A program made the position numbers and the translations under genes. DNA of 33,722 nt from Planctomycetes bacterium GWF2_41_51 (GTDB lineage: Bacteria; Planctomycetota; Phycisphaerae; Sedimentisphaerales; UBA12454), in assembly GCA_001825665.1 (NCBI GenBank), contig MHXZ01000063.1, forward strand, positions 1-33,722, given 5' to 3'. The notes below the pieces were generated by a model. It had not been told where the DNA came from. It ran no database searches and worked only from the letters and a program-made list of their open reading frames with translations. Positions within the stretch are counted from its first letter, which is position 1, and each line of letters opens with the position of its first letter. Of this stretch, positions 3,065 to 22,584 are shown piece by piece.

Positions 3065-3066
3065 TA

Positions 3067-3074
3067 CTTCTCCT
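3067..3074 (-). promoter_or_regulatory. Ribosome binding site deciding the GH133 start
   Basis: Minus-strand AGGAGAAG; the AGGAG part is 5 bases from the ATG at 3064. It supports the shorter GH133 start over the upstream ATG at 3124. Confidence 0.75.
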
Positions 3075-3078
3075 GCAT

Positions 3079-4920
3079 TCAAACCGATTTTAAAACAATA
3101 GCGCATTCGGCAGGCAAACGCCATCCTTCTATAAATTCAATTTCAGCAATTCCATATCCGCCATAAGCGGGTTCTTCGCTGTTAAAAACAATTTCCCACT
3201 TTTTATTCCTGTATGGGGCAAAAATTTGATTTGCGACAGGTGAACAAAACAAAGATTTTCCAAAATTAAATATCAGAAGTCTTCCTTCGTTTTCTTTCAG
3301 GAATCTGAGAATAAAAGTATTATCATTGAGAATCGCACTTTCTATATGATATAAATCAAGACTTGAAAAGACAGGGTCATTTTTTCGGAGTTTAACCAAT
3401 TCTTTAAACATCGTGTAAAAATTATTATTATGTCTCTCATTTAATTTCAATTTACATTTCAAAAAAGTATCGGATTCAGCGGGATGCGGCATAATACTCG
3501 CTATCTTTTCGGTTTTTATCACAGGAAACTGTTTCAAAAACTCCCATCGATATTTATCAATGGGGAAAGTCACATCCGCAAAATACAAAAACGGTGACGA
3601 ACAATTAAATTCCTGTCCCTGAAATATTAAAGGTGTCCAGGAGCCAAGCAGCAGCAATGCCGCTGCACATCTGCATTTAGAGGGAGAAATTAACTGGTGC
3701 ATTCTTGTGCCAAAAGCGGTATTTGCAATCTGATCATGATTTTCCGTATAGCAGATAAATTTTGAGAGAGCAATTGCTTCGGTAGAACTGCCTCGTCTTT
3801 TCTTCTGCCATCGCGAGAACTGCCCCTGATAAATAAATCCATATTTTACAGCCGATGTTATTTCCTGCGCGGCTCCGGTATAATCACTGTAATATGCGTC
3901 ATTTTTTCCAGTTAATGCTACATGCATAGTATGATGAAAATCATCGTTCCATATAGCGTCTAAACCGTAATCATCTATGAGCATTCTTTGCTGAGGTTCA
4001 TTTTCTCCGGTAATGAACAGAGATTTTTCCGGGCTGGCCTGTCGTACTTTGCTAACTATCTCTTTGATAATATGTACCTGCGATTTATCTATTATTTCCT
4101 GTGTAGCGTCTAATCTAAAACCATCGATGTGGAATTCATCTACCCAATAGCAGGCGTTGGTTATGAAAAATTCCCGCACATGTTTCGAACCACTCTCATC
4201 AAAATTATAGTGATTTCCCCATTCGCCGCTGTGAGAAGATAAATATTCTTTGGAAAAATATTCAATAAAACTTTCAGGGCCAATATGATTGTAAACGACA
4301 TCGAGGATGATCCCCATTTTCAATTTATGAGCTTTATTTACGAAAGTTCTAAAGTCATCAGGCGTTCCATAAATATGATAAGGAGAAAACAAACAAATAC
4401 CATCGTACCCCCAGCCAAAGTTTCCGATAAACTCACATACCGGCATAAGTTCGAGAATAGTAATGCCGGCATCAGCGATTTGTTCCAACTGCTCAGCCGC
4501 TGCGAGCCAGGTCCCCTCGGGAGTATAAACTCCTATATGCATTTCATAAATTATCTGATTTTTCGCGATTAATCCCTTCCAGTCCTGGTCTGACCATTCG
4601 AATAAAGAAGCATCAATAACTTGTGATGCACCTTTAGGCCCCTGAGGCTGAAATCTTGATACGGGATCCGGCAGAAGTGATTTGTAATTTTCCGGAAGAA
4701 AGCGATAAAGCATTGGTTCAGATTTTTTTTTTACTGAAGCGCTGAAGTATCCATCTTCTTCAACAGTCATTTTTATTTTTTGTGAAAAAGGCTGTTCAAT
4801 TATCAATTCCATATTGGTATTCGAGGAAGCCCAAACACGAAAATCAACAAAATCATCGATTATCTCCGCCCCAATCGGATAGTTTCTTGTCATGCTCGAA
4901 CGATTTTGCTCATTTGCCAT
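3079..4920 (-). CDS. treZ: GH13 malto-oligosyltrehalose trehalohydrolase-like enzyme (first copy)
   Basis: This 613-residue GH13 enzyme has a CBM48-like N-terminal domain (about residues 20-105, with VDFRVWASS) and then the TreZ-type opening YEMHIGVYTPEGTW at 125-138. The catalytic set is complete: nucleophile Asp271 in GFRLDATQEI, acid/base Glu306 in FITGENEP, and transition-state Asp396 in TENHDQIAN. The WNDDFHHTMHVALTG block (324-338) is characteristic of TreZ, which releases trehalose from maltooligosyl-trehalose. It is distinct from the second TreZ at 20919-22583, with a longer C-terminus and changed motifs (TGENEP instead of IAESDLNNP). It starts 4 bases after the FAD-Rieske stop, so translation may be coupled. 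A divergent specificity, such as branching or hydrolysis of another alpha-glucan, is possible. Confidence 0.8.
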   Translation of the reverse strand: MANEQNRSSMTRNYPIGAEIIDDFVDFRVWASSNTNMELIIEQPFSQKIKMTVEEDGYFSASVKKKSEPMLYRFLPENYKSLLPDPVSRFQPQGPKGASQVIDASLFEWSDQDWKGLIAKNQIIYEMHIGVYTPEGTWLAAAEQLEQIADAGITILELMPVCEFIGNFGWGYDGICLFSPYHIYGTPDDFRTFVNKAHKLKMGIILDVVYNHIGPESFIEYFSKEYLSSHSGEWGNHYNFDESGSKHVREFFITNACYWVDEFHIDGFRLDATQEIIDKSQVHIIKEIVSKVRQASPEKSLFITGENEPQQRMLIDDYGLDAIWNDDFHHTMHVALTGKNDAYYSDYTGAAQEITSAVKYGFIYQGQFSRWQKKRRGSSTEAIALSKFICYTENHDQIANTAFGTRMHQLISPSKCRCAAALLLLGSWTPLIFQGQEFNCSSPFLYFADVTFPIDKYRWEFLKQFPVIKTEKIASIMPHPAESDTFLKCKLKLNERHNNNFYTMFKELVKLRKNDPVFSSLDLYHIESAILNDNTFILRFLKENEGRLLIFNFGKSLFCSPVANQIFAPYRNKKWEIVFNSEEPAYGGYGIAEIEFIEGWRLPAECAIVLKSV

Positions 4921-4924
4921 ATCT

Positions 4925-6433
4925 TTATTCGATATCTACTTTCTTTAATGCTTCTCGCGGCGGTCCCACAATCACATTTCCATAAGAATCGTATCTTCCT
5001 CCATGGCAAGGACAATCCCAGCTCTGTTCGTTATTATTCCGCTGAACTATGCACCCCATATGCCTGCATGAAGCCGAAAAAACATGTGTCTTTCCGTCTT
5101 TGTCTTTATACACAGCACAGGTTTGATTTTTGATTCTCATCAACGCTCCCTCTTCAGGCTTCAACTTTTCTATATCTTCTTCATAATTAAAAATTCTGTC
5201 ACCGACAAAATGCTTGATAACATGCCCTATTTCCTTTGTCAGCTTCGGCATTGACAGCAGCAGTTTAATTCTTGAAGGTGAAAAAATTGCAGCAAGCGGA
5301 TTTTCCCTTTTCAAAACTAAATCACTGACCAATTTGGCTGATGCACTTCCGAAAGTTAAACCATCTCCCGAATACGATGCGAGCACAAGTACGTTTTCAG
5401 AGCCGGGAACAAAACCCGCATAAGGCAGTCCATCTGCCGACTCAAAATATTCACTGCACCAGTAGTATGGAATTGATTTCACTTTATATCTTTGGTTGGC
5501 ATATTCCTTAAGATTCTCAAAACTCTCTCTCGAATCAGGCTTTGACCCGACATGATAATCCGCGCCGCCAATTATCAATAAATTTTCATCTTGCGTCGAA
5601 GCAATTCGCGTATAATGATAAGGTACATCAGTATCCCAATAAAGTGCATCCTCAATTTTACTATCTGCTTCAACACCAATTACAAAAGAAAGCATTGGAT
5701 AGATTCGCGGCTGAATATTTATTTTTCCGGTTAGTGAAGTATGCCCGGCAAGGATAAGTTTTCCTGCTTCAATAGTGCTGGTAGATGTTGTAATTAAAAC
5801 TTTATCATTCTTTTCTTCAAATTCCTTCATCGTTGTATGTTCAAAAATCCTGCCTCCTGACGATGTAAATGCCTTAGCTAAACCTGTCAAATAAGCAAGC
5901 GGTGAAAACCTTGCCTGATTTTGAAAAAGCAGCGATTTGAATTTAGGAAATGGCAGCGGATTATTGGTTTGAATTGAAGTTGAAATATCGATTTTCGATG
6001 CGCAATCATGTTCTTCTTCTATTGCCTTATTATCTTTCTCATTCTCTGAATAAAGATAACCAGCTATCCTCTTGAAATCACATTCTATATTATATTTTGC
6101 CGCTAAGCTTTCAATCAACGTAACTGCATCTGCTTTTGCGTGTATTACTGTTTTTGCAGCACCCAACCCATAATGCTTTATTAATTTACAATATTCCTGA
6201 TCGTAATAATTATCCAAATGCCCTGTACTGAACGCAGTTGTGCCGTTCCTTAATGTATTCATTTCTATAAGAACTACATTAAAATTAGCTTCACAAAGCA
6301 GCATTGCTGCTGTTAACCCGCTAATTCCTCCTCCGACAACTGCGGCATCGCACTTTATGTTTTCAGTTAGATGAGGGAAATTTGTTTCATTAACCTGATT
6401 AAACCAATAAGGCTGATGTTTGTAATCGTTCAT
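4925..6433 (-). CDS. FAD-dependent oxidoreductase with C-terminal Rieske [2Fe-2S] domain
   Basis: The 502-residue protein starts with a Rossmann FAD-binding motif, AAVVGGGISGLTAAMLL at 30-46, of the DAO/glycine-oxidase-like family. It ends with a Rieske domain whose ligands are visible: Cys456-x-His458 (SCRHMGC) and Cys474-x-x-His477 (CPCHGGRYD). Cys461 and Cys476 are in place for the stabilising disulfide seen in high-potential Rieske proteins. Related DAO-Rieske fusions are common in bacteria, but their substrates are mostly unknown. There is no signal peptide or membrane helix, so it is probably cytosolic. It lies 4 bases before the TreZ-like gene, which ties it physically to alpha-glucan genes. 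The ATG at 6433 is preceded by AGAAG. Confidence 0.88.
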   Translation of the reverse strand: MNDYKHQPYWFNQVNETNFPHLTENIKCDAAVVGGGISGLTAAMLLCEANFNVVLIEMNTLRNGTTAFSTGHLDNYYDQEYCKLIKHYGLGAAKTVIHAKADAVTLIESLAAKYNIECDFKRIAGYLYSENEKDNKAIEEEHDCASKIDISTSIQTNNPLPFPKFKSLLFQNQARFSPLAYLTGLAKAFTSSGGRIFEHTTMKEFEEKNDKVLITTSTSTIEAGKLILAGHTSLTGKINIQPRIYPMLSFVIGVEADSKIEDALYWDTDVPYHYTRIASTQDENLLIIGGADYHVGSKPDSRESFENLKEYANQRYKVKSIPYYWCSEYFESADGLPYAGFVPGSENVLVLASYSGDGLTFGSASAKLVSDLVLKRENPLAAIFSPSRIKLLLSMPKLTKEIGHVIKHFVGDRIFNYEEDIEKLKPEEGALMRIKNQTCAVYKDKDGKTHVFSASCRHMGCIVQRNNNEQSWDCPCHGGRYDSYGNVIVGPPREALKKVDIE

Positions 6434-8376: not shown

Positions 8377-9474
8377 TTAGTGCTTTATTTTAAGAAGGAA
8401 TTTTTCTATCGATTGCCTGGCTGATATATCGCTAATTTGAACCGGAGGATGTTTCATAAAGTAAGAACTCATCGGTAAAAGAGGGCCTCCGATCTTCTTA
8501 TCTAAACCCAATTTACAAAACCTTATGGCATCTATGGCAACACCTGCACTGTTTGGAGAATCTTCCACGCTTAACCTTAGTTCCAGATTTAATGGAATGT
8601 TTGCAAACCCCCTGCCCTCTATCCGCAAGAAACAGACTTTATTATCTTTCTGCCAAGGAACATAATCAGCGGGGCCTATGTGCACCTGTTCGTCAGGCAG
8701 CGGTTCATTGAGTTGAGATTGTACTGCCATTGTTTTAGATATTTTTTTACTTTTTAATCTATGCCGATTCAGCATATTTAGAAAGTCGGTATTTCCGCCT
8801 GTATTTAGTTGATAAGTGGAATCTATTTTTATACCTCGATCGCAGAATAGCTTCGCTAAATTTCTGTGAAGAATTGTAGCTCCAAGCTGTGATTTTATAT
8901 CGTCCCCTATACAGGGAAGATGAGATTTTTTAAATTTCTGACCCCATATTTTATCGCTTACAATAAAAACCGGAATGCAATTGACAAAACCAAGTCCCGC
9001 ATCGAGAGCAGCCTGTGCGTAAAATTCAGCTGCTTTTTGGGAACCGACAGGCAAATAATTAATAAGTATATCGGCTTTGCTCTGTTTTAACACTTTCACT
9101 ATATCGGCTGCCTTTTGGCTGCTCAACCTGAAAGCATGTTTATCGGAATATTCCGACATATGTTCACTGACACCATCCATTACAGGTCCCATCTGCACAA
9201 CAGGTCCTGCCGTTTTGAAGTTCCTGAATATTTCTTTCGTGTTATTGGGCAAAGCAAAAATTGCTTCATTTAACGGTTTGCCTACTTTTCTTTTATCTAC
9301 GTCAAAAGCAGCGACCGGCTCTATATCAGCAGGTGTATATCCGCCAACTGAGTAATGCATTAAACCAATACAGCCATTGTTGGATTTATGGTTATTCCGG
9401 TAATATTCAATTCCCTGTAAAAGACTACTGGCACAATTGCCTACTCCAGCGATTGCTATTCGTATTTTTGCCAT
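8377..9474 (-). CDS. ino1: Inositol-3-phosphate synthase
   Basis: The 365-residue protein has the full signature of myo-inositol-1-phosphate synthase of the short bacterial/archaeal type: IAIAGVGNCASSLLQGIEYY at the N-terminal Rossmann fold, then GDDIKSQLGATILHRNLAKLF and TYQLNTGGNTDFLNML in the central catalytic domain. The enzyme converts glucose-6-phosphate to inositol-3-phosphate with bound NAD. A good ribosome site (AAAGGAA) precedes the ATG at 9474. It begins 12 bases after the permuted glycosidase-like gene, which makes a two-gene unit facing the divergent promoter region. Inositol-phosphate could feed phosphoinositide-type lipids, a compatible solute, or cyclitol sugars built by the oxidoreductases across the divergent promoter. 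Confidence 0.93.
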   Translation of the reverse strand: MAKIRIAIAGVGNCASSLLQGIEYYRNNHKSNNGCIGLMHYSVGGYTPADIEPVAAFDVDKRKVGKPLNEAIFALPNNTKEIFRNFKTAGPVVQMGPVMDGVSEHMSEYSDKHAFRLSSQKAADIVKVLKQSKADILINYLPVGSQKAAEFYAQAALDAGLGFVNCIPVFIVSDKIWGQKFKKSHLPCIGDDIKSQLGATILHRNLAKLFCDRGIKIDSTYQLNTGGNTDFLNMLNRHRLKSKKISKTMAVQSQLNEPLPDEQVHIGPADYVPWQKDNKVCFLRIEGRGFANIPLNLELRLSVEDSPNSAGVAIDAIRFCKLGLDKKIGGPLLPMSSYFMKHPPVQISDISARQSIEKFLLKIKH

Positions 9475-9486
9475 ATAATTGTTCCT

Positions 9487-10365
9487 TTAATTTACATATC
9501 TTTCTACTACTTCTCTGGAAAAATTGGAAAATTCGTTAATGTCGGTAGGCGGGCTTGTATGATCCGGTCTTATCCCGATTGATGGAGGAGTGAAGCAAAA
9601 TGTAAGTGTAACATCGAATTCGCTCAATTTGCTCATTTGATGATCGAACCATTTAACAGCATTTGGTCTGTGCCAATCCGCCCAACTTATTCCTGTTCTT
9701 AATTTTTTTACTTTTAATTTTCTCAGCCAGTAAACGGCTTCATCAAGCCTTTGGTCTTCGAAACAAAACCATTGGCATATTCCCATTGCAGGGTTGAAGT
9801 GTTCAAAAGCCGGTTTAACAGTTCCATCAGCACGTATTAATCCTAAATAAAAATGACGATAGTAACTGCTCCCTTCTTTTTCTTTATGTCTTGTAGTGGC
9901 TGCCCAGGTTGGAGGCAAATCGAGCAGGCTGTACCAGAAAATGTTTTCCACAATACCTGCTAGCAGTTCATTTGTCCGCTTTAAACCAAAAACCTGAACT
10001 TCCTCGGCACCAAAAGATGAAACTCCTACTTCTGTAACCCAAATAGGTAAATGTGTTACGCTTTGTATTTCTTTAATTTTATTCGGCCAATGATTTATTT
10101 GCCAATGATTCCAATCCAGAGGAAAGCCATGAACACCCACGGCATCGAGATTTTCGAGTACTTTATTATATGCCATAAGTTTTACGAAGTCAGGGTCAAT
10201 CGGGCTTATTCCGCCTAATACAAGCTTGATACGGGGTTTTAACTTTTTTATAACTGCGGCAGCTTTGCTTATCATTTGGCTGAACTGTTTCCATCCCGCA
10301 TCGATTTCAAAGTCCCAATGAGATAAATTATTCGGTTCATTCCAAAGCATTATAGCTGATACCAT
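9487..10365 (-). CDS. Glycosidase-like TIM-barrel protein with apparently permuted halves
   Basis: The 292-residue protein resembles clan-A glycosidases (beta-xylosidase-like). The catalytic pair appears in place: Glu10 in LWNEPNN (acid/base) and Glu112 in WVTEVGVSS (nucleophile). It starts directly at the strand that carries the acid/base Glu. The piece that should precede that strand comes last, from about residue 195: GICQWFCFEDQRLDEAV, KKLRTGISWADWH and DVTLTFCFTP. The fusion protein at 11657-13624 has the same blocks in ordinary order, which supports circular permutation. The ATG at 10365 has GAGGG upstream, and in-frame upstream sequence reaches a stop 9 codons earlier, so no N-terminal half is missing in frame. 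No signal peptide is seen. Substrate is unknown. Confidence 0.75.
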   Translation of the reverse strand: MVSAIMLWNEPNNLSHWDFEIDAGWKQFSQMISKAAAVIKKLKPRIKLVLGGISPIDPDFVKLMAYNKVLENLDAVGVHGFPLDWNHWQINHWPNKIKEIQSVTHLPIWVTEVGVSSFGAEEVQVFGLKRTNELLAGIVENIFWYSLLDLPPTWAATTRHKEKEGSSYYRHFYLGLIRADGTVKPAFEHFNPAMGICQWFCFEDQRLDEAVYWLRKLKVKKLRTGISWADWHRPNAVKWFDHQMSKLSEFDVTLTFCFTPPSIGIRPDHTSPPTDINEFSNFSREVVERYVN

Positions 10366-10402
10366 TTGGCCCTCACCGGTTCGAGTACATCAAAAGAATT
10401 AA

Positions 10403-10427
10403 ACTGATAAGAAAACATATTATCAGT
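10403..10427. promoter_or_regulatory. 8-bp inverted repeat in the divergent intergenic region
   Basis: ACTGATAA (10403-10410) and TTATCAGT (10420-10427) form a perfect 8-bp inverted repeat with 9 bases between. It lies in the 176-base region between the two divergent operons. It could be an operator for a dimeric regulator of both directions, or a small hairpin. No convincing -35/-10 pair could be fixed in this A/T-rich stretch. Confidence 0.4.
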
Positions 10428-10541
10428 ATTGGCCTTGGTACTTTCATTTAGAAATATGCTTAATTAATTCCAGCATTTTCCTGATTTATAAAATTATCTA
10501 AAAAAATATATTAAAACAATTCAATTTAAGGGGAATTTTTA

Positions 10542-11660
10542 ATGAAGAAAATACTCATTACAGGCGGCGCAGGTTTTATCGGTTCACATTTAGCAGATGA
10601 ATTGCTCAATAACGGTTATCATTTACGTATTATAGATAACCTCAACCCACAGGTTCACGGGTATATAGACAAACCTCCGCATTATCTATCCAAAGACGCA
10701 GAGTTTATCTACGGTGATGTTCGTAATCCCCAAATTGTGAATTCGGCGCTCAAAGGCATAGATGCTGTATTTCATCTTGCGGCAGCTGTGGGTGTAGGGC
10801 AAAGTATGTATGAAATAGAAAAATATACGAGCAATAACAGCCTGGGAACCGCGGTTTTATGCCAATGTATAATTGATAATCACCAGGATATAAGCAAGTT
10901 TATTGTTGCGTCGAGTATGAGTATATACGGCGAAGGACAGTATATTAATAACAATCATCAAATCGTGGGCAACGCAAAAAGAACTCTTGAACAGCTTAAA
11001 AAATATATATGGGAACCATTTGATACCGATGGAACTCCCCTTCAGCCAATACCAACAAATGAAAACAAACAGCCGGATTTAACCAGCATATATGCTTTAA
11101 CAAAATATGATCAGGAAAGAATGTGTATTATCATGGGAAACGCTTACAATATTCCGACTGTCGCTCTTCGCTTTTTCAATGTATATGGAACAAGGCAGTC
11201 TTTATCAAACCCCTATACCGGTGTATTGGCAATTTTCGCTTCAAGACTGCTAAATGGCAACACCCCTTTAGTTTTCGAGGATGGCAATCAGAAACGCGAC
11301 TTTATAAATGTGAAAGACATAGCACGAGCATGCAGGCTTGTTTTGGAAAATCCAATTACCAGAGATAAAATTTATAATATTGGAAGCGGAAATTGTTACA
11401 CTATTAAAGAAATTGCTGAATTACTTTCATCAGTTTTGAACAAGAATATAGAACCGGTAATCACACGCAAGTACAGGGTCGGAGACATTCGTCATTGTTT
11501 TGCAGATATTCGGCACGCGAACTCTGAACTTGGTTTTTCACCGCAAATAAATCTTGAACAGGGTTTAACAGAATTATCACAATGGCTTGCAGAACAGATT
11601 TCCACTGATGAATTTGAAAAAGCAAGTCAGCAGCTAATCCAGCGAGGACTTACAATATGA
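10542..11660 (+). CDS. NAD-dependent epimerase/dehydratase (extended SDR)
   Basis: The 372-residue extended SDR has the NAD-binding motif TGGAGFIG at residues 7-14, FHLAAAVGVGQSM at 77-89, an active-site segment ASSMSIYGEG and the catalytic YxxxK at Tyr184-Lys188 (SIYALTKYDQERM). The RFFNVYG and NPYTGVLAIFASRLLNG blocks place it near dTDP-L-rhamnose 4-epimerase and UDP-glucose 4-epimerase-like enzymes. Some relatives carry a cysteine-rich insertion between the GEG motif and YxxxK. Here that segment is present but lacks cysteine pairs. The ATG at 10542 has AAGGGG at a good distance. It is the first gene of the + operon and overlaps the next by 4 bases (ATGA). The exact nucleotide-sugar substrate is not determinable. 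Confidence 0.88.
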   Translation: MKKILITGGAGFIGSHLADELLNNGYHLRIIDNLNPQVHGYIDKPPHYLSKDAEFIYGDVRNPQIVNSALKGIDAVFHLAAAVGVGQSMYEIEKYTSNNSLGTAVLCQCIIDNHQDISKFIVASSMSIYGEGQYINNNHQIVGNAKRTLEQLKKYIWEPFDTDGTPLQPIPTNENKQPDLTSIYALTKYDQERMCIIMGNAYNIPTVALRFFNVYGTRQSLSNPYTGVLAIFASRLLNGNTPLVFEDGNQKRDFINVKDIARACRLVLENPITRDKIYNIGSGNCYTIKEIAELLSSVLNKNIEPVITRKYRVGDIRHCFADIRHANSELGFSPQINLEQGLTELSQWLAEQISTDEFEKASQQLIQRGLTI

Positions 11661-13624
11661 GCCGTCAGGAAACCTGTATAGAAGGATTGGGTGTTTCTGA
11701 ATGGTTTAAGATTGGCCAGTACGGACGAGTTGAAAAAGTACTCAATGAACTAAGAGCCATATCGATTAAGCATATTCGTGCGGCCTTTTCGTATGAAGAC
11801 TGGCATCAACAAGATGGCAGTCAATGGTTCGAATGGCTGTTTTCTAATTTAAGCAAAAATTTTGAACTTTTGCCCTGCTTTGTTTTCAATCCAGGCTCAA
11901 AAATTTACAACATGCAGGAATTCGCGGATTTTATTAAATTAATGATTCAGAAATTCGGACTGCATTTCCAATGGTTTGAATTATTGAACTCACAAAACAG
12001 TCGGATATGCAGTGATTATAAAACTTTCAACAACTTAATTAAAGAAGTCGCCGCAGAAGCCAAGATAAATCATAAAAAAATACTCGTGGGCGGCATATCT
12101 CCTTGTGACATAGAAATTTTAGATTTGTTTTCGAGCGATTTGGTTAATGATATTGATGCAATTGGAATTCGCGATTTTCCCGGTAATTACGGATGGATTA
12201 ATTGGGATAATTCCATAAATAAAGTCCGTAAAGTATTTGAGGAAAATAAAATAAATTTACAAATATGGATAACTGAAACGGGTTTTTCAACATGGGGCAG
12301 AGACGAATTCGGGCAAATAACAAATTTTATTGATTTTCTAAAAGTGCATGTCGATAGGCGTTACTGGTATTCTGCAGAAGATTTAACAAATGAATTATTT
12401 AACAAAAACGAAGATGTGGAAGAGAAGCGGCAATATCATTTCGGTTTAATTAAAAACGACGGCAATCCGAAACTAATTTATCGCATCTGGAAGCAGCAGG
12501 GTCTTCAGGGACTGCAAAGTATAAGCAGCTACAATGGTTTTACATCTCAATCGTTTGGCGAAAGCAGGAAATTGGCTATGATAACAGGCGGAGCCGGATT
12601 TATTGGTACTAATCTTGCCGACAAACTTCTCAGTTCAGGTAAATCAGTAATTATATTCGATAATCTTTCAAGGCACGGCACAGAACACAACATAAAATGG
12701 CTGAAACAAAAATATCCCGACAAAATAAAAATCAAATTTGCCGACATTCGCAATAAATACGCATTAAGAGATGTGCTTAATTGCGTTGATCAGGTATTTC
12801 ATCTGGCTGCGCAAGTAGCGGTTACATCGAGCATTATTGACCCGGTTGAGGATTTCAGCGTTAACATCAATGGAACTTTAAATCTGCTGGAAGAAATCAG
12901 AAGAATGAAAAATCGGCCTTCATTGCTTTTCACCTCAACAAATAAAGTTTACGGCCGTTTGGATGATATAAATTTTGTTCAGACCAATTCACGCTATGAG
13001 CCTGTAAATACAGATATTAAAAATAACGGTATTGGGGAAAACAGGCATCTCGATTTTCATAGTCCTTACGGATGTTCCAAAGGTTCGGCAGACCAATACG
13101 TTCTGGATTATTGCAGAATATATGATTTATCAAATGTTATTTTCAGGATGAGCTGCATTTATGGTCCGCATCAATTCGGAACCGAAGACCAGGGCTGGGT
13201 CGCATATTTTTTAATTCAGGCAATAAATAATAAAAATATCACAATTTTCGGGAATGGGAAACAGGTCAGAGATATTTTATTCGTAGATGATTTAACGCAG
13301 GCAATGACACTGGCAATGAAGAATATTGATGTTGTAAAAGGAAAAGTTTTTAATATAGGCGGCGGACCGGATAATACTATCAGCATATTGGAATTCCTCG
13401 AGGAGATTAAAAAGCTAAATATCCAAATGCCTGACATAAATTATGGACAATGGAGAAGCGGAGACCAGAAATATTATGTCTCAAATATTAATTTATTCAA
13501 AAGCCTTACAGGTTGGCAGCCAAAAGTAACTTCTCGCCAGGGAATTAAAAAACTTTTCGAATGGCTGAATGATAAACACTATAAAATTATCAATGAGAAA
13601 ATACATGAATATACAGCAATCTGA
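11657..13624 (+). CDS. Fusion: inactive-looking glycosidase barrel plus CDP-paratose 2-epimerase-like SDR
   Basis: This 655-residue protein has two domains. Residues 1-280 form a glycosidase-like TIM barrel paralogous to the protein at 9487-10365, but in ordinary order (KHIRAAFSYEDWH, then LVGGISPCD, then WITETGFSTWG, then QYHFGLIKNDG). Glu207 matches the nucleophile, but the acid/base position reads LLNSQNS instead of LWNEPNN, so Ser112 replaces Glu and hydrolysis is doubtful. Residues ~305-655 are an extended SDR with TGGAGFIGTNL, YGCSKGSADQYVLDY and FRMSCIYGPHQFGTEDQGW, the last typical of CDP-paratose (CDP-tyvelose) 2-epimerases. The barrel may now bind a sugar or present substrate to the epimerase. 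Start and stop overlap the neighbouring genes, so it is clearly part of the operon. Confidence 0.85.
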   Translation: MSRQETCIEGLGVSEWFKIGQYGRVEKVLNELRAISIKHIRAAFSYEDWHQQDGSQWFEWLFSNLSKNFELLPCFVFNPGSKIYNMQEFADFIKLMIQKFGLHFQWFELLNSQNSRICSDYKTFNNLIKEVAAEAKINHKKILVGGISPCDIEILDLFSSDLVNDIDAIGIRDFPGNYGWINWDNSINKVRKVFEENKINLQIWITETGFSTWGRDEFGQITNFIDFLKVHVDRRYWYSAEDLTNELFNKNEDVEEKRQYHFGLIKNDGNPKLIYRIWKQQGLQGLQSISSYNGFTSQSFGESRKLAMITGGAGFIGTNLADKLLSSGKSVIIFDNLSRHGTEHNIKWLKQKYPDKIKIKFADIRNKYALRDVLNCVDQVFHLAAQVAVTSSIIDPVEDFSVNINGTLNLLEEIRRMKNRPSLLFTSTNKVYGRLDDINFVQTNSRYEPVNTDIKNNGIGENRHLDFHSPYGCSKGSADQYVLDYCRIYDLSNVIFRMSCIYGPHQFGTEDQGWVAYFLIQAINNKNITIFGNGKQVRDILFVDDLTQAMTLAMKNIDVVKGKVFNIGGGPDNTISILEFLEEIKKLNIQMPDINYGQWRSGDQKYYVSNINLFKSLTGWQPKVTSRQGIKKLFEWLNDKHYKIINEKIHEYTAI

Positions 13625-14621
13625 AAAACAAAGCATATCGAAAATAATCAAAAACCCTCCTTCTTTAATGAAAGCTGCCGTTTTCGCAGGGCCGAATCAA
13701 ATTAAAATATATTCTGTTGAAATACCGCAGCCTAAAAAAAATCAAGTCAGAATAAAACTACAGGGATGCGGAATTTGCGCTTCGAATCTGCCGGTATGGC
13801 AGGGGCGGGAATGGTTCAAGTATCCGCTCGAACCAGGTTATCCGGGACATGAAGGCTGGGGTATAATTGATGATGTAGGAGACAATGTAAGCGAATTTAA
13901 AAAAGGTCAGCGTGTAGCTTTCCTGTCAGATCACTCGTATTGTGAATATGAAAATGTCAATTCGGATGCAGTTGTTAAATTACCAGATTCATTGAACAAA
14001 TACCCATTCCTCGGTGAACCTTTCGCATGCGCGATGAACATATTAAAAAGGAGCGAACTCCAGGCCGGACAAAAAATCGCAATTATCGGCATAGGCTTTC
14101 TCGGGGCAATGCTCACGTCATTAGCCGCCCAGCAAGGCTGTGAAGTTATAGCCATTTCAAGAAGGCCGTTTTCTCTCTCAGTCGCAAAGAATAAAGGGGC
14201 CGCTCATACAATCCTTATGGAAAATAAATATGACATAATCAAAAAAGTAAAAGAATTAACGAATAGCTCGGGATGTCAGCGCGTTATTGAAGCTGTTGGA
14301 AATCAGGAATCAATCGAATTGGCAGGAGAATTGATCTCTATCAAAGGCAAATTGATTATTGCAGGTTATCATCAGGATGGTTTGAGAAAAATTAATATGC
14401 AGGTTTGGAACTGGAAAGGCATTGATGTTATTAATGCGCATGAAAGAGAAATGTCAGTTTATTTGGAAGGCATTCGCTCGGCTATAACGGCAATCGAAAA
14501 GGGAGACTTCTGGCCGTTCGATTTGTTAACCAATAGTTATACCATTGAGCAATTGCCGAATGCTTTTGAAGATATGCAGAAAAGGCCTGATGGTTTCATG
14601 AAAGCTTATTTAATATTTTAA
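13605..14621 (+). CDS. Zinc-type medium-chain alcohol/polyol dehydrogenase
   Basis: The 338-residue MDR-superfamily enzyme has the catalytic zinc site: GCGICASN with Cys58, and GHE with His82-Glu83. The Asp usual after CxxC-type loops is Asn61. The Rossmann motif is AIIGIGFLGAM at about 162-172. The four-cysteine structural zinc loop of classical alcohol dehydrogenases is absent. Relatives oxidise or reduce polyols and sugars, including inositol derivatives. I chose the ATG at 13605, preceded by GAGAA and overlapping the previous stop by 20 bases. An ATG at 13569 is further inside the upstream gene, and the one at 13668 (MKAAVFAGP) matches family starts but lacks a ribosome site. The operon context points to sugar-nucleotide or cyclitol modification. 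Confidence 0.85.
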   Translation: MNIQQSEKQSISKIIKNPPSLMKAAVFAGPNQIKIYSVEIPQPKKNQVRIKLQGCGICASNLPVWQGREWFKYPLEPGYPGHEGWGIIDDVGDNVSEFKKGQRVAFLSDHSYCEYENVNSDAVVKLPDSLNKYPFLGEPFACAMNILKRSELQAGQKIAIIGIGFLGAMLTSLAAQQGCEVIAISRRPFSLSVAKNKGAAHTILMENKYDIIKKVKELTNSSGCQRVIEAVGNQESIELAGELISIKGKLIIAGYHQDGLRKINMQVWNWKGIDVINAHEREMSVYLEGIRSAITAIEKGDFWPFDLLTNSYTIEQLPNAFEDMQKRPDGFMKAYLIF

Positions 14622-14625
14622 TCCT

Positions 14626-15645
14626 ATGATTTTAGCAGCCGAACAAAATACAATCTCCACAAAACCCCGCGTTGGTTTTTTAGGCATGGGTTGGATAGGC
14701 ACCAGCCGAATGGAAGCAATAATAAAACGTAATTTAGTAGATGTTATAACAATCGCAGATCCGAATATAACAGTTTATGAAAAAATCAAAAACTTGGTTC
14801 CAAAAGCTTTTTTTGTACAAGATATGGAACAGATGATGGAACAAAAATTAGATGCGATTGTAATTGCGACACCAAGCGCTTTGCATTGCAAGCAATCGGT
14901 CAAAGCTCTTGAATCTGGAGCGGCCGTTTTCTGTCAAAAACCTCTCGGCAGAAATCTTCGAGAAACAACAAAAGTGGTCAATACGGCAAAGGAAATGAAC
15001 CGTCTTTTGGGAATTGATTTTTCATATAGATATGTTCGTTCCTTACAGGCGGTTTATGATTGCATCAGTCAGGGACAAATAGGCGATGTTTATGCCGTTA
15101 ATTTGGTTTTCCACAATGCTTATGGCCCTGATAAAGATTGGTTCTATGATGTAAAGCAATCTGGCGGCGGCTGCGTCATTGATTTGGGAATACATTTGAT
15201 AGATTTATGTTTATGGATTTTAGATTTCCCTGAAATCCTTCAATGCAGCAGCAAATTGTATTCAAAAGCAAAACCATTCAATCACGCAGAAAACAAAGTT
15301 GAAGACTATGCATCAGCTCAATTAATATCTGACAATGGTACAGTAATAAACCTTGCATGTTCATGGAACCTTTCTGCCGGCTGCGATGCGATAATAAAGG
15401 CAGAATTTTTCGGCAAAGACGGCGCGGCGGTTTGGGGAAATGTTAATGGTTCATTCTTTAATTTTAAATCTAAAAAAATGAAAGGGACCGCCTCGCAAAT
15501 CTTATTCGATTCACCGGATGACTGGTTTGGCAAAGCTGCCGCAAAATGGTCAGAAAAACTTGTAAAAAGCTGCGAATACGATTCGGATGTAGAATCCGTA
15601 AATGCAGTTGCAAAAGTTATAGATATGATTTACCAGCGTTATTAG
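14626..15645 (+). CDS. Gfo/Idh/MocA family oxidoreductase
   Basis: The 339-residue protein shows the N-terminal dinucleotide fold VGFLGMGWIGTSRMEAI (16-32), IATPSALHC (80-88), and the family motif with catalytic Lys105 in FCQKPLGRN, where Gln replaces the usual Glu of EKP. GGGCVIDLGIHLIDLCLW carries the His and Asp typical of the active site. Members oxidise or reduce sugars, inositols and nucleotide sugars with NAD(P). It starts 4 bases after the preceding dehydrogenase. The pair, facing inositol-phosphate synthase across the divergent promoter, would fit cyclitol or keto-sugar chemistry, but the substrate is unproven. Confidence 0.9.
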   Translation: MILAAEQNTISTKPRVGFLGMGWIGTSRMEAIIKRNLVDVITIADPNITVYEKIKNLVPKAFFVQDMEQMMEQKLDAIVIATPSALHCKQSVKALESGAAVFCQKPLGRNLRETTKVVNTAKEMNRLLGIDFSYRYVRSLQAVYDCISQGQIGDVYAVNLVFHNAYGPDKDWFYDVKQSGGGCVIDLGIHLIDLCLWILDFPEILQCSSKLYSKAKPFNHAENKVEDYASAQLISDNGTVINLACSWNLSAGCDAIIKAEFFGKDGAAVWGNVNGSFFNFKSKKMKGTASQILFDSPDDWFGKAAAKWSEKLVKSCEYDSDVESVNAVAKVIDMIYQRY

Positions 15646-15656
15646 GAGAAAATACA

Positions 15657-16022
15657 ATGCCTGCGAAAACAAAAAGTTCGAAATCTCGAATGTCCAGGAC
15701 TAAAACCAGAAGATCGGTAACAAAGCCGGTAACAAAAAGTAAAAGCACATCAAAACGCACCACAGACCACAAGGAAATTATGAAGTGGGCCGAAAACAGA
15801 GGCGGCCAACCAGCGGCTGTTAAAAGAACTCGCGGTTCAAAAGAAACCGGCCTTATCAGAATTGATTTTCCCGGATATTCAGGCTCTAAATCGCTTGAAC
15901 ATATTAGCTGGGATGATTTCTTTAAAAAATTTGATAAATCGAAACTGCAGCTCGTTTATCAGGATAAGACAAAAGACGGAAAGAAAAGCAGATTCAATCG
16001 CTTAGTTAAGATAAAAAAATGA
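15657..16022 (+). CDS. Small basic protein of the kind often annotated as 1,4-alpha-glucan branching enzyme
   Basis: The 121-residue protein has a Lys/Arg/Ser/Thr-rich, probably disordered N-terminal tail (1-35) and a compact domain at 36-118 containing TTDHKEIMKWAENRGGQPA, IRIDFPGYSG, ISWDDFFKKFD and LQLVYQD. This domain recurs as a free-standing small protein in many bacteria. From memory, databases often label it 1,4-alpha-glucan branching enzyme, although it has no GH13 or GH57 catalytic residues, so I would not assign that activity. AGGAG at 15644-15648 supports the ATG at 15657. A longer frame upstream lies inside the previous gene and is rejected. It overlaps the GT4 start by 4 bases (ATGA), so coupled translation is likely. 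Confidence 0.75.
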   Translation: MPAKTKSSKSRMSRTKTRRSVTKPVTKSKSTSKRTTDHKEIMKWAENRGGQPAAVKRTRGSKETGLIRIDFPGYSGSKSLEHISWDDFFKKFDKSKLQLVYQDKTKDGKKSRFNRLVKIKK

Positions 16023-17128
16023 TTTTTAAAAAATTGCCCAAACGTATTCTGATGACAGCCGATACAATAGGAGGAGTCTGGAATTATAGTATAGATTTAA
16101 TTGGTGCATTGGAACAATATGGAATAGAAACTGCCCTGCTTTCAATGGGCAGAAAGCTTGATAACTCACAGCGAAAACAAATAGCAAAGCTGAGAAATCT
16201 GCAACTCTATGAGACAGATTATAAATTGGAGTGGATGGATGATCCATGGAACGACGTTGAAGCAGCGGGCAGAACATTACTGGAAATTGAAAACATTTTC
16301 AGGCCGGACATTATTCATCTAAATGGCTATAGTCATGCGTGTTTAAACTTTAATGCTCCTGTCTTAGTTGTCGCTCATTCCTGTGTTTATTCATGGTATG
16401 AAGCTGTTTTCAATAAACGTCCTCCCGCCAAATGGAATAAATATTACGAAAATGTACTCGCGGGCCTGCGATCCGCAAATATTGTTACTGCCCCTACTGG
16501 TACTATGATTAAATCAATGCTGAAAATATACGGACAATTCAATTATGCTGAGCCTGTTCATAATGCCAGAAATACTATTGCTCAAACTACCAATAAAAAG
16601 ATGTGTTTTATTTTTACTTCCGGAAGATTATGGGATGAAGCCAAGAATATAGCTGCATTGGATTGCGCTGCTCAAAAAATCAAATGGCCGATATATGCAG
16701 CCGGAGAAAATATACATCCGAATGGAAAAGAATATAAATTTAAAAATATTACAGTAGCTGGATTTTTAAATCATAAAAAGATATCAGAATATAATTCAAA
16801 GGCTTCCATTTTCGTTCTTGCCGGTAAGTACGAGCCTTTCGGTTTATCGGCACTTGAAGCGGCATCGGAAGGATGTGCACTTGTTTTGAGCGACATTCCT
16901 TCGTTTAAAGAGATTTGGCAGGACTGCGCTTTATACGTTAATCCTGACAAATCCGAGGACATTGCTTCAAAGGTTAATTCTCTTATTAACGATAAACAAA
17001 AATTGAAATATTACGGTCAAAAAGCTCAAAACAAAGCGAAGATATATTCAATTGAAAAAATGTCCGCTGCTTATCTCAATATATATTGCAAATTACTTAA
17101 ACCTCAGCCATTGTGCCTTACGAACTGA
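16019..17128 (+). CDS. Family 4-type glycosyltransferase (GT-B)
   Basis: The 369-residue GT-B glycosyltransferase has an N-terminal acceptor-domain opening MTADTIGGVWNYSIDL. Its donor-site E-x7-E motif is EPFGLSALEAASEG (about residues 270-283), typical of retaining GT4 enzymes. HLNGYSHA and VVAHSCVYSWYEAV match a subgroup that recurs beside sugar-modifying loci. No signal peptide or membrane segment is visible, so it probably works at the cytoplasmic face. It overlaps the small protein upstream by 4 bases and is followed by three CgeB-type transferases. Together they could assemble an oligosaccharide, though donor and acceptor are not identifiable. Confidence 0.85.
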   Translation: MIFKKLPKRILMTADTIGGVWNYSIDLIGALEQYGIETALLSMGRKLDNSQRKQIAKLRNLQLYETDYKLEWMDDPWNDVEAAGRTLLEIENIFRPDIIHLNGYSHACLNFNAPVLVVAHSCVYSWYEAVFNKRPPAKWNKYYENVLAGLRSANIVTAPTGTMIKSMLKIYGQFNYAEPVHNARNTIAQTTNKKMCFIFTSGRLWDEAKNIAALDCAAQKIKWPIYAAGENIHPNGKEYKFKNITVAGFLNHKKISEYNSKASIFVLAGKYEPFGLSALEAASEGCALVLSDIPSFKEIWQDCALYVNPDKSEDIASKVNSLINDKQKLKYYGQKAQNKAKIYSIEKMSAAYLNIYCKLLKPQPLCLTN

Positions 17129-17146
17129 TTATAGGAAAGGAAAAAG

Positions 17147-18286
17147 ATGCGTATTGCAATGTTTTATCATTCCCTCATCAGTGATTGGAACAACGGCAAC
17201 GCTCATTTCCTGCGTGGGATTGTTGCGGAACTTTTACGGCTCGGCCATAATGTCAATGTTTATGAGCCTGAGAATGGCTGGAGTTATAATAATTTAATTA
17301 AATTTCATGGAAATAATCCTATTGAGGATTTCAGTAAATCATTTCCGCATTTAAAAAGCATAAAATACAGATTAGCTGATTTTGATTTGAACGTTTTGAA
17401 CGATATGGATTTAGTTATCGTTCACGAATGGAATGAACCTCAACTGATAAGGATGATAACACAGCACCGCAAATCAAATACTGGTTATAAATTATTATTT
17501 CACGATACTCATCATCGCTGCGCATGTCAGCCGCAACATACGCAAAATCTTGATATATCCTCGTTCGATGGAGTGCTTGCTTTTGGTAAAGTTTTGGCCG
17601 ACATTTATTTAGCCAAAAATTGGAATAATAATGTTTGGGTCTGGCACGAAGCGGCGGATACAAACATATTTAAACAAGTTAACGATGAAACAAGGAAAAG
17701 TGATTTAGTTTGGATTGGAAACTGGGGCGATAACGAACGATCGCAGGAAATTCAGGAATTTTTGATTGCCCCTTCCTGTGATTTGAAATTAAAGGCAAAT
17801 GTATATGGTGTCAGATATCCATCTAAAGCAATGAAAATGCTGAGTAATGCCGGCATTCAATATAAAGGCTGGCTTGCAAACCACAAAGTTCCGCATATTT
17901 TTCAACATCATCGATTCACAGTTCACATTCCGCGAAGGCCGTACAGCCAATTGCTTGTTGGCGTCCCGACTATCCGAGTATTTGAGGCATTGGCCTGTGG
18001 TATCCCATTGATTTGCGCTCCCTGGCAGGATTCAGAAAATCTTTTTACACCAGGAAAAGATTATCTGATGGCTGAAAATGGCAGTGAAATGAAAAAACAA
18101 ATGAAAAAGATTATCAATGAACCCGAATTTGCAGCGCAATTAGCCGAGCATGGAAGAAAAACAATATCACAAAGACATACTTGTGCCCATCGCGTTACTC
18201 AGCTATTAAGTATATGCAAACAGCTTGACATAGATATCAATACTGAGAAAAAACAATCTGCGAAAAAGGAAAAAATCAATGCCTGA
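17147..18286 (+). CDS. CgeB-family glycosyltransferase (copy 1 of 3)
   Basis: The 379-residue GT-B-type protein opens with ISDWNNGNAHFLRGIVAELL and VYEPENGWS, the layout shared by all three copies here. The C-terminal donor domain contains VGVPTIRVFEALACGIPLI and PWQDSENLFTPGKDYL, typical of the spore-maturation protein CgeB/Glyco_trans_1_2 family. HDTHHRCACQP at about 121-131 is His/Cys-rich and particular to this copy. An AGGAAAGGA ribosome site precedes the ATG at 17147. It lies 18 bases after the GT4 gene and overlaps the next copy by 8 bases. CgeB-type proteins glycosylate spore or surface structures in some organisms. The target here is unknown. Confidence 0.82.
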   Translation: MRIAMFYHSLISDWNNGNAHFLRGIVAELLRLGHNVNVYEPENGWSYNNLIKFHGNNPIEDFSKSFPHLKSIKYRLADFDLNVLNDMDLVIVHEWNEPQLIRMITQHRKSNTGYKLLFHDTHHRCACQPQHTQNLDISSFDGVLAFGKVLADIYLAKNWNNNVWVWHEAADTNIFKQVNDETRKSDLVWIGNWGDNERSQEIQEFLIAPSCDLKLKANVYGVRYPSKAMKMLSNAGIQYKGWLANHKVPHIFQHHRFTVHIPRRPYSQLLVGVPTIRVFEALACGIPLICAPWQDSENLFTPGKDYLMAENGSEMKKQMKKIINEPEFAAQLAEHGRKTISQRHTCAHRVTQLLSICKQLDIDINTEKKQSAKKEKINA

Positions 18287-19355
18287 AAAATGCCGAATAG
18301 ATTTTTACGGTTCAAGCCTTGTCTCAGCATACTGGAATGGAGCCGCTACTTATTATCGGGGAATTATCAAAGAGTTAAATAAGTTAGGTTATCAAGTAAA
18401 ATTTTATGAACCTGATGCGTTCAATCGCCAGAAGCATAGAGATATAAAAGATTTGACTTATGCGGAAAGTATTATTTACCAGGCTCAAAAAGAAGATGAA
18501 GTCAGAACAATCCTTAAAAAAAGTGTGGATGCTGATATCATTATCAAAGCCAGCGGTGTGGGTGTTTTTGACCGGTTGCTCGAAGAAGAAGTTTTAAAAC
18601 TTAAATCGCAAAAAAATCTCGTAATTTTCTGGGATGTTGATGCGCCTGCAACCCTTGACAGAATGCAAAACAATCCTGATGATTATTTTCGGTCTCTTGT
18701 TAGTCAATATGATTTAATTTTAACTTACGGCGGCGGTAAACCCGTAGTCGATAAATATCTTTCATTCGGTGCCAAAAAATGCGTTCCAATATACAATGCT
18801 CTTGACGCAGAAACACATTACCCTGTTGCGCGCTCAAATAAATTCAAAAGTGATTTAGCTTTTCTCGGCAATCGTATGCCCGATAGAGAAAAACGTGTTT
18901 TCGAATTCTTCTTCAAACCTGCGCAAAAGCTTGCACATAAAAAATTTTTATTAGGAGGCAGCGGCTGGGATATCAACACTCCCTTCTTATCTAATTTGGA
19001 GTATGTCGGCCATGTTTATACAGCAGAGCACAATGCTTTTAATTGCACGCCTTTGGCAATTCTAAATATAAGCAGGGAAAGCATGGCAAGCTTTGGCTTT
19101 TCTCCTGCGACTCGTTTATTTGAAGCGGCCGGCGCAGGCGCCTGTATAATCACTGATAAATGGCAGGGTATTGAGAATTTTCTCGAGCCGGAAAAAGAAT
19201 GTTTCATTGCTGAAGATGGCGAACAGGTTGCTGATATACTTTCACATTTAACGCCTGATATTGCGAAAAGAACCGGTTTAAACGCATTGCGAAGAATCCT
19301 TTCAGAACATACGTATTCCAAACGTGCCGCCGAATTAGACCGTTTGCTGATATGA
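18279..19355 (+). CDS. CgeB-family glycosyltransferase (copy 2 of 3)
   Basis: The 358-residue protein is homologous to its two neighbours. It opens VSAYWNGAATYYRGIIKELN and FYEPDAF. It has VIFWDVDAPATLDRM in the middle and FSPATRLFEAAGAGACII plus WQGIENFLEPEKECFIAEDG in the donor domain. The middle Asp-rich motif is shared with copy 3 (YDIDTPVTL) but not obviously with copy 1, so copies 2 and 3 look most closely related. The ATG at 18279 follows AAAAAGGA and overlaps copy 1. The stop overlaps the start of copy 3 as ATGA. The function is inferred only from family membership. Confidence 0.82.
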   Translation: MPEKCRIDFYGSSLVSAYWNGAATYYRGIIKELNKLGYQVKFYEPDAFNRQKHRDIKDLTYAESIIYQAQKEDEVRTILKKSVDADIIIKASGVGVFDRLLEEEVLKLKSQKNLVIFWDVDAPATLDRMQNNPDDYFRSLVSQYDLILTYGGGKPVVDKYLSFGAKKCVPIYNALDAETHYPVARSNKFKSDLAFLGNRMPDREKRVFEFFFKPAQKLAHKKFLLGGSGWDINTPFLSNLEYVGHVYTAEHNAFNCTPLAILNISRESMASFGFSPATRLFEAAGAGACIITDKWQGIENFLEPEKECFIAEDGEQVADILSHLTPDIAKRTGLNALRRILSEHTYSKRAAELDRLLI

Positions 19356-20425
19356 ATAAAAATCTAAACATTGTCTTTGTCGGACTTTCTATAACAAGTT
19401 CATGGGGCAACGGCCATGCGACAACATACCGTGCCTTAATACGGCAGCTTGCTGCACGAGGACACGATGTAACCTTCTTTGAATGTGATGTTCCATGGTA
19501 TTCATCGAACCGCGATTTACCCAGCCCCACCTTTTGCCGAACTTTGCTTTATAAAGATGTTGAAGATTTGCGCATCAATTATGAAAGGGTAATAAAAAAT
19601 GCGAATTTCATTATTCTCGGCTCTTATGTTCAAAAAGGCGTTCCCACCGCAAATTGGCTTTTGAAAACTGCCAACTGTCCTGTAGGCTTCTATGATATCG
19701 ATACTCCTGTAACACTCGCAAAACTTGCGAATGGAGATTATGAGTATATTGATAATTCAGTACTACCTCGATTTTCTGTTTATCTTTCTTTTACAGGCGG
19801 AAAGACACTTGATATTCTGCAAAATGAACTCGGCTCACCAAAAGCGATACCTTTCTATTGTTCAGTTGACATTGATAAATACTTTCCTCAGCAGCAGGAA
19901 AAATGTTACGACCTTGGTTATCTCGGAACCTTCAGTCCAGACCGTCAGCCTGCGTTAAAAAAGCTTATGCTCGATGCTGCCGATAAATGGATTAATGGAA
20001 AATTCATCGTAGTCGGGCCGCAATATCCAAAAAATGTAAAATGGCCGAAAAATTTAACTAAAATAGAACATCTTGAACCCTCAAAACATAGGAGCTTTTA
20101 CAATTCACAGCGTTATACTTTAAATATTACCCGTATAGATATGATAAAGGCCGGTTTTTCTCCGAGCGTCAGATTATTCGAAGCCGCAGCTTGCGGTACT
20201 CCGATTATCAGTGATTATTGGCAAGGCATCGAAACCTTTTTCAAACCCGACGATGAAATCTTAATTTCATCTTCACCTCAGCAAACCTTAAACTATATTC
20301 AGGATATCCCTGAAGAAACAAGAAAGCAAATAAGCATTAATGCAAGAAAACGTGTCATTAACGAGCATACCGCCTCTGTCAGGGCAAAGCAGCTTGAACA
20401 AATTATTTGTTCTTTATTGCCATAG
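19352..20425 (+). CDS. CgeB-family glycosyltransferase (copy 3 of 3)
   Basis: The 357-residue protein opens ITSSWGNGHATTYRALIRQL and FFECDVPWYSSNRDLPSP. It has FYDIDTPVTLAKL in the middle and FSPSVRLFEAAACGTPII with YWQGIETFFKPDD in the donor domain. It is the last gene of the + operon. Its final 12 bases overlap the 3' end of the convergent DUF2267 gene, which leaves no room for a conventional terminator between the two transcripts. It most likely transfers a sugar in the same pathway as copies 1 and 2. Successive addition of different residues is an inference from their divergence. Confidence 0.82.
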   Translation: MNKNLNIVFVGLSITSSWGNGHATTYRALIRQLAARGHDVTFFECDVPWYSSNRDLPSPTFCRTLLYKDVEDLRINYERVIKNANFIILGSYVQKGVPTANWLLKTANCPVGFYDIDTPVTLAKLANGDYEYIDNSVLPRFSVYLSFTGGKTLDILQNELGSPKAIPFYCSVDIDKYFPQQQEKCYDLGYLGTFSPDRQPALKKLMLDAADKWINGKFIVVGPQYPKNVKWPKNLTKIEHLEPSKHRSFYNSQRYTLNITRIDMIKAGFSPSVRLFEAAACGTPIISDYWQGIETFFKPDDEILISSSPQQTLNYIQDIPEETRKQISINARKRVINEHTASVRAKQLEQIICSLLP

Positions 20426-22583: not shown

Positions 22584-22584
22584 C

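Follow-up and report, generated by a model that had tools for sequence, protein, structure and literature searches.

A probable natural circular permutant of a GH39/PslG-like glycosidase barrel in a glycan gene cluster shared by many bacterial phyla

Can an enzyme barrel and its circularly permuted relative reside in one and the same bacterial gene cluster, and are both of them enzymes? The question is raised by contig MHXZ01000063.1 of Planctomycetes bacterium GWF2_41_51 (assembly GCA_001825665.1), whose 33,722 nucleotides constitute the window analysed here. Two genes encode glycosidase-like (β/α)8 barrels: a protein of 292 amino acids (P0001, 9487-10365, minus strand) and a longer protein (P0002, 11657-13624, plus strand), in which a barrel of canonical strand order is fused to an NAD-dependent epimerase. 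An initial annotation, made from the letters alone, had matched the blocks of both barrels pairwise in swapped order and had proposed a natural circular permutation. On re-reading the sequence, both open reading frames (ORFs) are found at the coordinates claimed, with every quoted block present and in the order claimed. We consider it probable that P0001 derives from a GH39/PslG-like barrel of clan GH-A through a single natural circular permutation, that its predicted role is that of a retaining glycosidase working inside the cell within a glycan cluster, and that the fused barrel of P0002 is decaying.

The permutation is most directly seen in a rotation scan, in which P0001 was rotated in 3-residue steps and scored with a profile built from 13 relatives of canonical order (P0002 excluded). 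In its native order P0001 scores 141.8 bits and matches profile positions 108-290 only. Rotated at residue 192, the optimum, it reaches 257.3 bits in one collinear alignment with positions 5-290. Seven other permuted proteins respond to rotation in the same way, and the N-terminal domain of P0002 attains its top score unrotated (231.6 bits). The pairwise block match is therefore far beyond chance, and a single rotation at the α8/β1 junction renders P0001 and the canonical barrels collinear. The relocation of the N-terminal third to the end is thereby confirmed; its size, given initially as 95 residues, is about 100 (residues 193-292). Among solved structures, PslG of Pseudomonas aeruginosa is the top match of each profile (E 9.6e-7 for the permuted, 2.1e-7 for the canonical profile). 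The canonical profile aligns with PslG in one uninterrupted piece. The permuted profile aligns as two segments of swapped order, query residues 197-293 being matched to PslG chain residues 21-128 and query residues 2-166 to 131-303, so that the segments adjoin at 128/131.

The alignment with PslG also identifies the putative catalytic residues. The Glu of the PslG motifs WNEPN and TEWG align with E10 and E112 of P0001 and, by a constant numbering offset, correspond to E165 and E276, the acid/base and the nucleophile of PslG, respectively (PMC11912335). Both E10 and E112 are present in all 88 permuted proteins, as are W8, N9, P11, H79, W144, Y145 and R223 around them. P0001 indeed begins at the strand with the acid/base Glu, as had been noted: E10 lies on β4, and 81 of 87 distinct permuted ORFs have a start codon that precedes the W of WNEP by exactly 7 codons. 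A start fixed at β4 leaves no space for a preceding signal peptide, and the permuted enzyme is therefore probably cytoplasmic. PslG is an intracellular retaining endo-β-glucanase that is co-transcribed with the Psl exopolysaccharide synthesis genes and whose activity shapes polysaccharide placement (PMC9075953, PMC11912335). By analogy, the permuted enzyme would act as an intracellular retaining β-glycosidase and would most likely trim, release or quality-control an oligosaccharide intermediate that GT1-GT4, the four glycosyltransferases of its cluster, produce. In public records the permuted protein is annotated as 'beta-xylosidase', a label that is putative. A rather unlikely alternative is a barrel that transfers or binds glycans and does not hydrolyse them, namely a transglycosylase or a glycan-sensing regulator. 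In its favour, the gene lies among assembly genes that include four glycosyltransferases, transglycosylation is common in retaining GH-A enzymes, and the repeated loss of catalytic residues in the fused paralogue indicates that a non-catalytic role exists in the group. The invariance of both catalytic Glu and the nearby aromatic residues points to catalysis, although it does not separate hydrolysis from transfer.

The two barrels of the window differ in this respect. Where active relatives have LWNEPNN, the barrel of P0002 has LLNSQNS; the acid/base Glu is gone and the nucleophile (TETG) is kept, so that one of the two Glu that mark an active glycosidase is left. Both catalytic Glu are intact in 6 of 6 stand-alone canonical barrels, and at least one is lost in 9 of 17 epimerase-fused barrels, P0002 included (the others are found at our loci L086, L092, L112, L136-L138, L140 and L141). 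The variants comprise TATG, TAAG, SATG, TQTG, NHPN and NSQN, and no fewer than three or four separate changes are required to account for them. Because the fused barrel has lost its acid/base Glu, it is unlikely that the locus holds two working enzymes. The conservation of both Glu in the permuted proteins, as opposed to their loss in fused barrels, suggests that the fused domain (11657-12526) is decaying or has been repurposed and is probably non-catalytic, and that the permuted protein is likely the enzyme of this locus. Loss of Glu is found in 9 of 12 fused barrels with the permuted gene present and in 0 of 5 with it absent (Fisher p 0.009), counts that reduce to no more than four phylogenetically independent pairs, and a link between the two is not established. 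In many other clusters the second epimerase carries no barrel at all. The epimerase tree, which is poorly supported, shows 7 label changes as against one clade of fused barrels, which suggests that the barrel was gained once by the second epimerase and then lost repeatedly.

AlphaFold2, run for the permuted form on an alignment of 51 permuted proteins, predicts P0001 as one closed monomeric barrel of eight strands (residues 2-7, 47-50, 75-79, 108-113, 141-145, 195-197, 221-227 and 251-257; predicted local distance difference test, pLDDT, 86.2; predicted template modelling score, pTM, 0.88). The canonical domain of P0002 is likewise predicted with eight strands (11-15, 39-44, 70-77, 106-111, 141-147, 168-172, 202-208 and 234-238; pLDDT 86.1, pTM 0.87). 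From these positions it follows that P0001 opens with the five canonical strands β4-β8, which are followed by the three strands β1-β3. The alignments and the predicted structures place the cut after helix α3 and before strand β4, at the barrel face that looks away from the active site, and show the ancestral termini bridged by a link of 10-13 residues from α8 to β1. Measured from the α8 lysine, this link has 13 or 10 residues in nearly all of the 87 distinct ORFs. Order-dependent structure searches gave the outcome expected of a permutation: PslG was retrieved with the canonical model (Foldseek E 9e-14, Z 23.7), whereas the permuted model retrieved generic barrels only (best Foldseek E 1.2e-5, Z 13.7 or less). 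The initial annotation had suggested predicting both structures and had named a separate C-terminal domain as evidence against permutation. In the model the last 100 residues instead form β1-α1-β2-α2-β3-α3 and complete the barrel. It is accordingly very improbable that these residues are a domain of their own whose likeness to β1-β3 is that of any βα repeat, with a barrel left incomplete or closed by dimerisation. It is true that the βα units of TIM barrels are mutually similar and that a monomer model leaves a domain-swapped dimer possible. However, a single monomeric barrel is predicted at this pTM, and residues 193-292 match canonical β1-β3 specifically (31-43% identity) and are correctly placed on PslG.

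The permuted order is conserved far beyond this genome and marks one ancient family. A genome-wide scan retrieved at least 585 relatives. All of the best 80 loci encode full-length permuted proteins (59-70% identity), which bears out the suggestion that other members of the family are permuted too. The hosts belong to at least a dozen bacterial phyla and comprise Chloroflexota, Bacteroidota, Verrucomicrobiota, Bdellovibrionota, Pseudomonadota, Desulfuromonadales and relatives, Fibrobacterota, Gemmatimonadota, Acidobacteriota, Armatimonadota, Myxococcota, Nitrospirota and Planctomycetota. A tblastn search finds a full-length permuted homologue of P0001 in 99 plasmid records (about 60% identity, mostly Sinorhizobium and Rhizobium), and the permuted order is also found at full length in Planctomycetota genomes. 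In several permuted ORFs an in-frame stop lies merely 7-12 codons upstream of WNEP, and therefore no room is left for a preceding coding sequence. An artefact of assembly or annotation, or a gene split by a frameshift whose true form is canonical, had been considered from the outset; the genome is an assembly of 138 contigs, and misassembled tandem copies can yield permuted ORFs. This explanation retains practically no probability and is rejected on the conservation across phyla: the 99 plasmid records share order, start and end, and these recur in no fewer than 80 independent loci, among them complete plasmids and isolate genomes, and the genome itself contains no other copy related to P0001 save the fused barrel of P0002. 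Cellulases of the same genome (PF00150) were considered as kin of the two barrels and rejected as unrelated.

For the careful tree the permuted proteins were rotated in silico and canonical-order outgroups were added; a quick tree with more rows was also made. The tree resolves a permuted clade (support 100/95), an epimerase-fused canonical clade (100/99) and a stand-alone canonical clade (95/82). All sampled permuted members form one clade, and thus one permutation would suffice; since the outgroups have canonical order, this order is taken as ancestral. A recent local rearrangement of the neighbouring P0002 barrel, conceivable as both forms lie less than 1.5 kb apart on opposite strands, is rejected by the tree and has next to no probability, because the supported clades of permuted and of fused barrels are distinct and because P0001 shares 58-70% identity with permuted proteins from other phyla, as against about 31% with its neighbour. 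Within the permuted clade the branching departs from the phyla of the hosts, a pattern suggestive of horizontal spread of the gene. The permuted gene would have arisen by duplication and fusion, then truncation, which is the usual permutation model and has been proposed for GH70 (PMC4919382).

We note that several points weigh against the interpretation of P0001 as a once-permuted GH-A barrel. Both structures are predictions, and the permuted model has low confidence at residues 155-169, 83-85 and 12-15. The tree gives weak preference to a sister relationship between the two canonical groups; a clade of stand-alone canonical and permuted barrels is not rejected (approximately unbiased test, p-AU 0.39). 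Finally, a search of all fetched ORFs with the canonical profile yielded no tandem-duplicated or split intermediate, and for this reason the route of permutation is one that we infer.

The permuted gene is part of a large glycan cluster (window 8377-20425) that recurs in at least a dozen phyla. According to a comparison of 83 neighbourhoods, its recurrent genes, present in subsets that vary between loci, are an inositol-phosphate synthase, a histidine phosphatase, two NAD-dependent epimerases, an alcohol dehydrogenase, a Gfo/Idh/MocA oxidoreductase, four glycosyltransferases, a TIGR04290 methyltransferase, a nucleotidyltransferase, a UDP-glucuronate decarboxylase and an ABC exporter. Four Planctomycetota clusters without the permuted gene (L171, L172, L174 and L175) have the order GT1-GT2-GT3-GT4-TIGR04290, followed by a stand-alone canonical barrel; in loci such as L056, L065 and L070 the slot after GT4-TIGR04290 is occupied by the permuted gene. 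The shared slot is therefore positional evidence that both forms do the same job, and the permuted barrel would be the counterpart of the unpermuted stand-alone barrel of the Planctomycetota clusters. Both forms in one locus were initially regarded as unusual; a fused canonical barrel lies within 10 kb of the permuted gene in 5 of the best 80 loci. At the level of genomes the co-occurrence is recurrent, as 11 of 50 genomes with a permuted copy also carry the epimerase-fused canonical barrel. A more far-reaching scenario, to which we give rather little credence, is that the permuted enzyme replaced the stand-alone canonical one in an ancient glycan cluster, spread horizontally owing to an advantage of the rotated chain and left the fused barrel redundant, with repeated independent loss of its Glu. 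Such an advantage could be, for example, that the new N-terminus at the catalytic strand couples the enzyme to a partner of the cluster.

The coordinates of the relevant features are collected in Table 1. Within the window, the gene at 4925-6433 encodes a C-terminal Rieske domain fused to an FAD-dependent oxidoreductase, and a REP-associated/IS200-type transposase-like protein, recognised by eye, is encoded near the contig end (32165-32854). The flanks of the cluster (1037-4920 and 20919-27184) contain, likewise by eye, trehalose/glycogen-like genes (glycogen debranching-like, two GH13-type, TreY-like and GlgX-like), a hint of a stress or osmolyte island; treZ flanks the Bradyrhizobium cluster as well. 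A conserved cluster protein of 580 amino acids without a Pfam match (L050, 10330-12078) is found in 15 of the 83 neighbourhoods. In ten Bacteroidota loci (L072, L073, L074, L079, L091, L093, L100, L101, L103 and L130) the permuted gene resides in another gene set, with a gene similar to that at window 124-1023, an F420 hydrogenase-like FrhB, a polysaccharide pyruvyl transferase and a histidine phosphatase.

Table 1. Features of the permuted-barrel locus, in window coordinates
Feature	Coordinates	Strand	Evidence
Permuted glycosidase-like (β/α)8 barrel P0001, 292 amino acids, β4-β8 then β1-β3	9487..10365	-	rotation scan, AlphaFold2, cross-phylum conservation
P0001 residues 1-192, homologous to canonical C-terminal two thirds (β4 to α8), now N-terminal	9790..10365	-	rotation scan and model strands
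P0001 residues 193-292, homologous to canonical N-terminal third (β1 to α3), now C-terminal	9490..9789	-	rotation scan and model strands
Glu10 codon, predicted acid/base (WNEPNN, β4)	10336..10338	-	88/88 permuted proteins; aligns with WNEPN Glu of PslG
Glu112 codon, predicted nucleophile (WVTEVG, β7)	10030..10032	-	88/88 permuted proteins; aligns with TEWG Glu of PslG
Barrel domain in canonical order, residues 1-290 of P0002, without the acid/base Glu (LLNSQNS)	11657..12526	+	sequence, model, active-site count
NAD-dependent epimerase/dehydratase domain, C-terminal to canonical barrel, P0002 residues 308-640	12578..13576	+	PF01370 E 9.9e-50; TIGR01181 match 308-640, below cut-off
Stand-alone NAD-dependent epimerase EPI1, first gene of divergent plus-strand operon	10542..11660	+	domain matches; conserved neighbour
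Myo-inositol-phosphate synthase homologue, directly downstream of permuted gene	8377..9474	-	TIGR03450 E 6e-131, below cut-off; in 30/83 neighbourhoods
Zn-type alcohol dehydrogenase, conserved cluster	13569-14621	+	domain matches; neighbourhood comparison
Gfo/Idh/MocA oxidoreductase, conserved cluster	14626-15645	+	domain matches; neighbourhood comparison
Four glycosyltransferases GT1-GT4, conserved cluster	16019..20425	+	Pfam PF00534, PF13524; conserved order

Among known systems, PslG (GH39; PDB 5bx9, 4zn2, 9g17) is the solved protein closest to both forms in profile searches and to the canonical model in fold, and its motifs WNEPN and TE(W/V)G align with those of the permuted proteins. PslG differs in having canonical order and an extra C-terminal region, whereas P0001 is permuted, of about 290 amino acids, only remotely similar and part of a different cluster. 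In Pfam, P0001 matches PF11790 (E 7e-5) and, below cut-off, PF07745; no GH39 model matched up to E 1, and P0001 is therefore not filed as GH39. The permuted family thus escapes annotation: Pfam covers one part of it, NCBIfam has no model, and an order-dependent structure search misses its GH-A kinship.

With regard to gene content, the TIGR04290/TIGR04295-type clusters of Bradyrhizobium and Sinorhizobium pSymB share with the permuted-gene cluster an inositol-3-phosphate synthase, a histidine phosphatase, a nucleotidyltransferase, a methyltransferase, two epimerases, four glycosyltransferases and the 'beta-xylosidase'. Their second epimerase is barrel-less, whereas in the window it is fused to the barrel and no TIGR04290 gene is seen. 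A literature search by TIGR04290, TIGR04295 and guessed pSymB locus tags, with most subscription journals outside its coverage, found no paper on the recurrent cluster. The permuted barrel also draws attention to this uncharacterised glycan cluster and its broad distribution. The N-terminal domain of PgaB, a circularly permuted CE4 (PMC13366581), is likewise a permuted barrel-type carbohydrate enzyme of an exopolysaccharide cluster, but differs in fold, a (β/α)7 deacetylase, and in chemistry.

Permuted glycosidase barrels as such are already known, the best-known natural case being the GH70 glucansucrases in relation to the GH13 α-amylases. A literature search that left out most subscription journals turned up no description of a GH-A-type glycosidase with permuted order, hence none of a permuted member of the GH39/PslG-like group. 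GH70 begins at α3-β4 (PMC4919382), and the permuted family, which starts at β4, is cut at nearly the same place; there, too, permuted and non-permuted members coexist (GtfC, PMC9732880). GH70 enzymes belong to clan GH-H, with another catalytic apparatus, and are large extracellular multidomain proteins, whereas the permuted family is unrelated in sequence, consists of a minimal single GH-A-like domain and resides in a biosynthetic cluster of many phyla. No GH13 or GH70 model is among the Pfam matches of P0001, and its catalytic pattern is GH-A-like. To our knowledge, few enzyme barrels have undergone circular permutation in nature, and the textbook example, GH70 and GH13, concerns large multidomain enzymes. 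A minimal barrel of 290 residues that occurs permuted and unpermuted in the same slot of matching clusters offers a clean natural experiment on permutation, in which effects on folding, stability and catalysis are open to comparison across hundreds of natural relatives of the permuted form.

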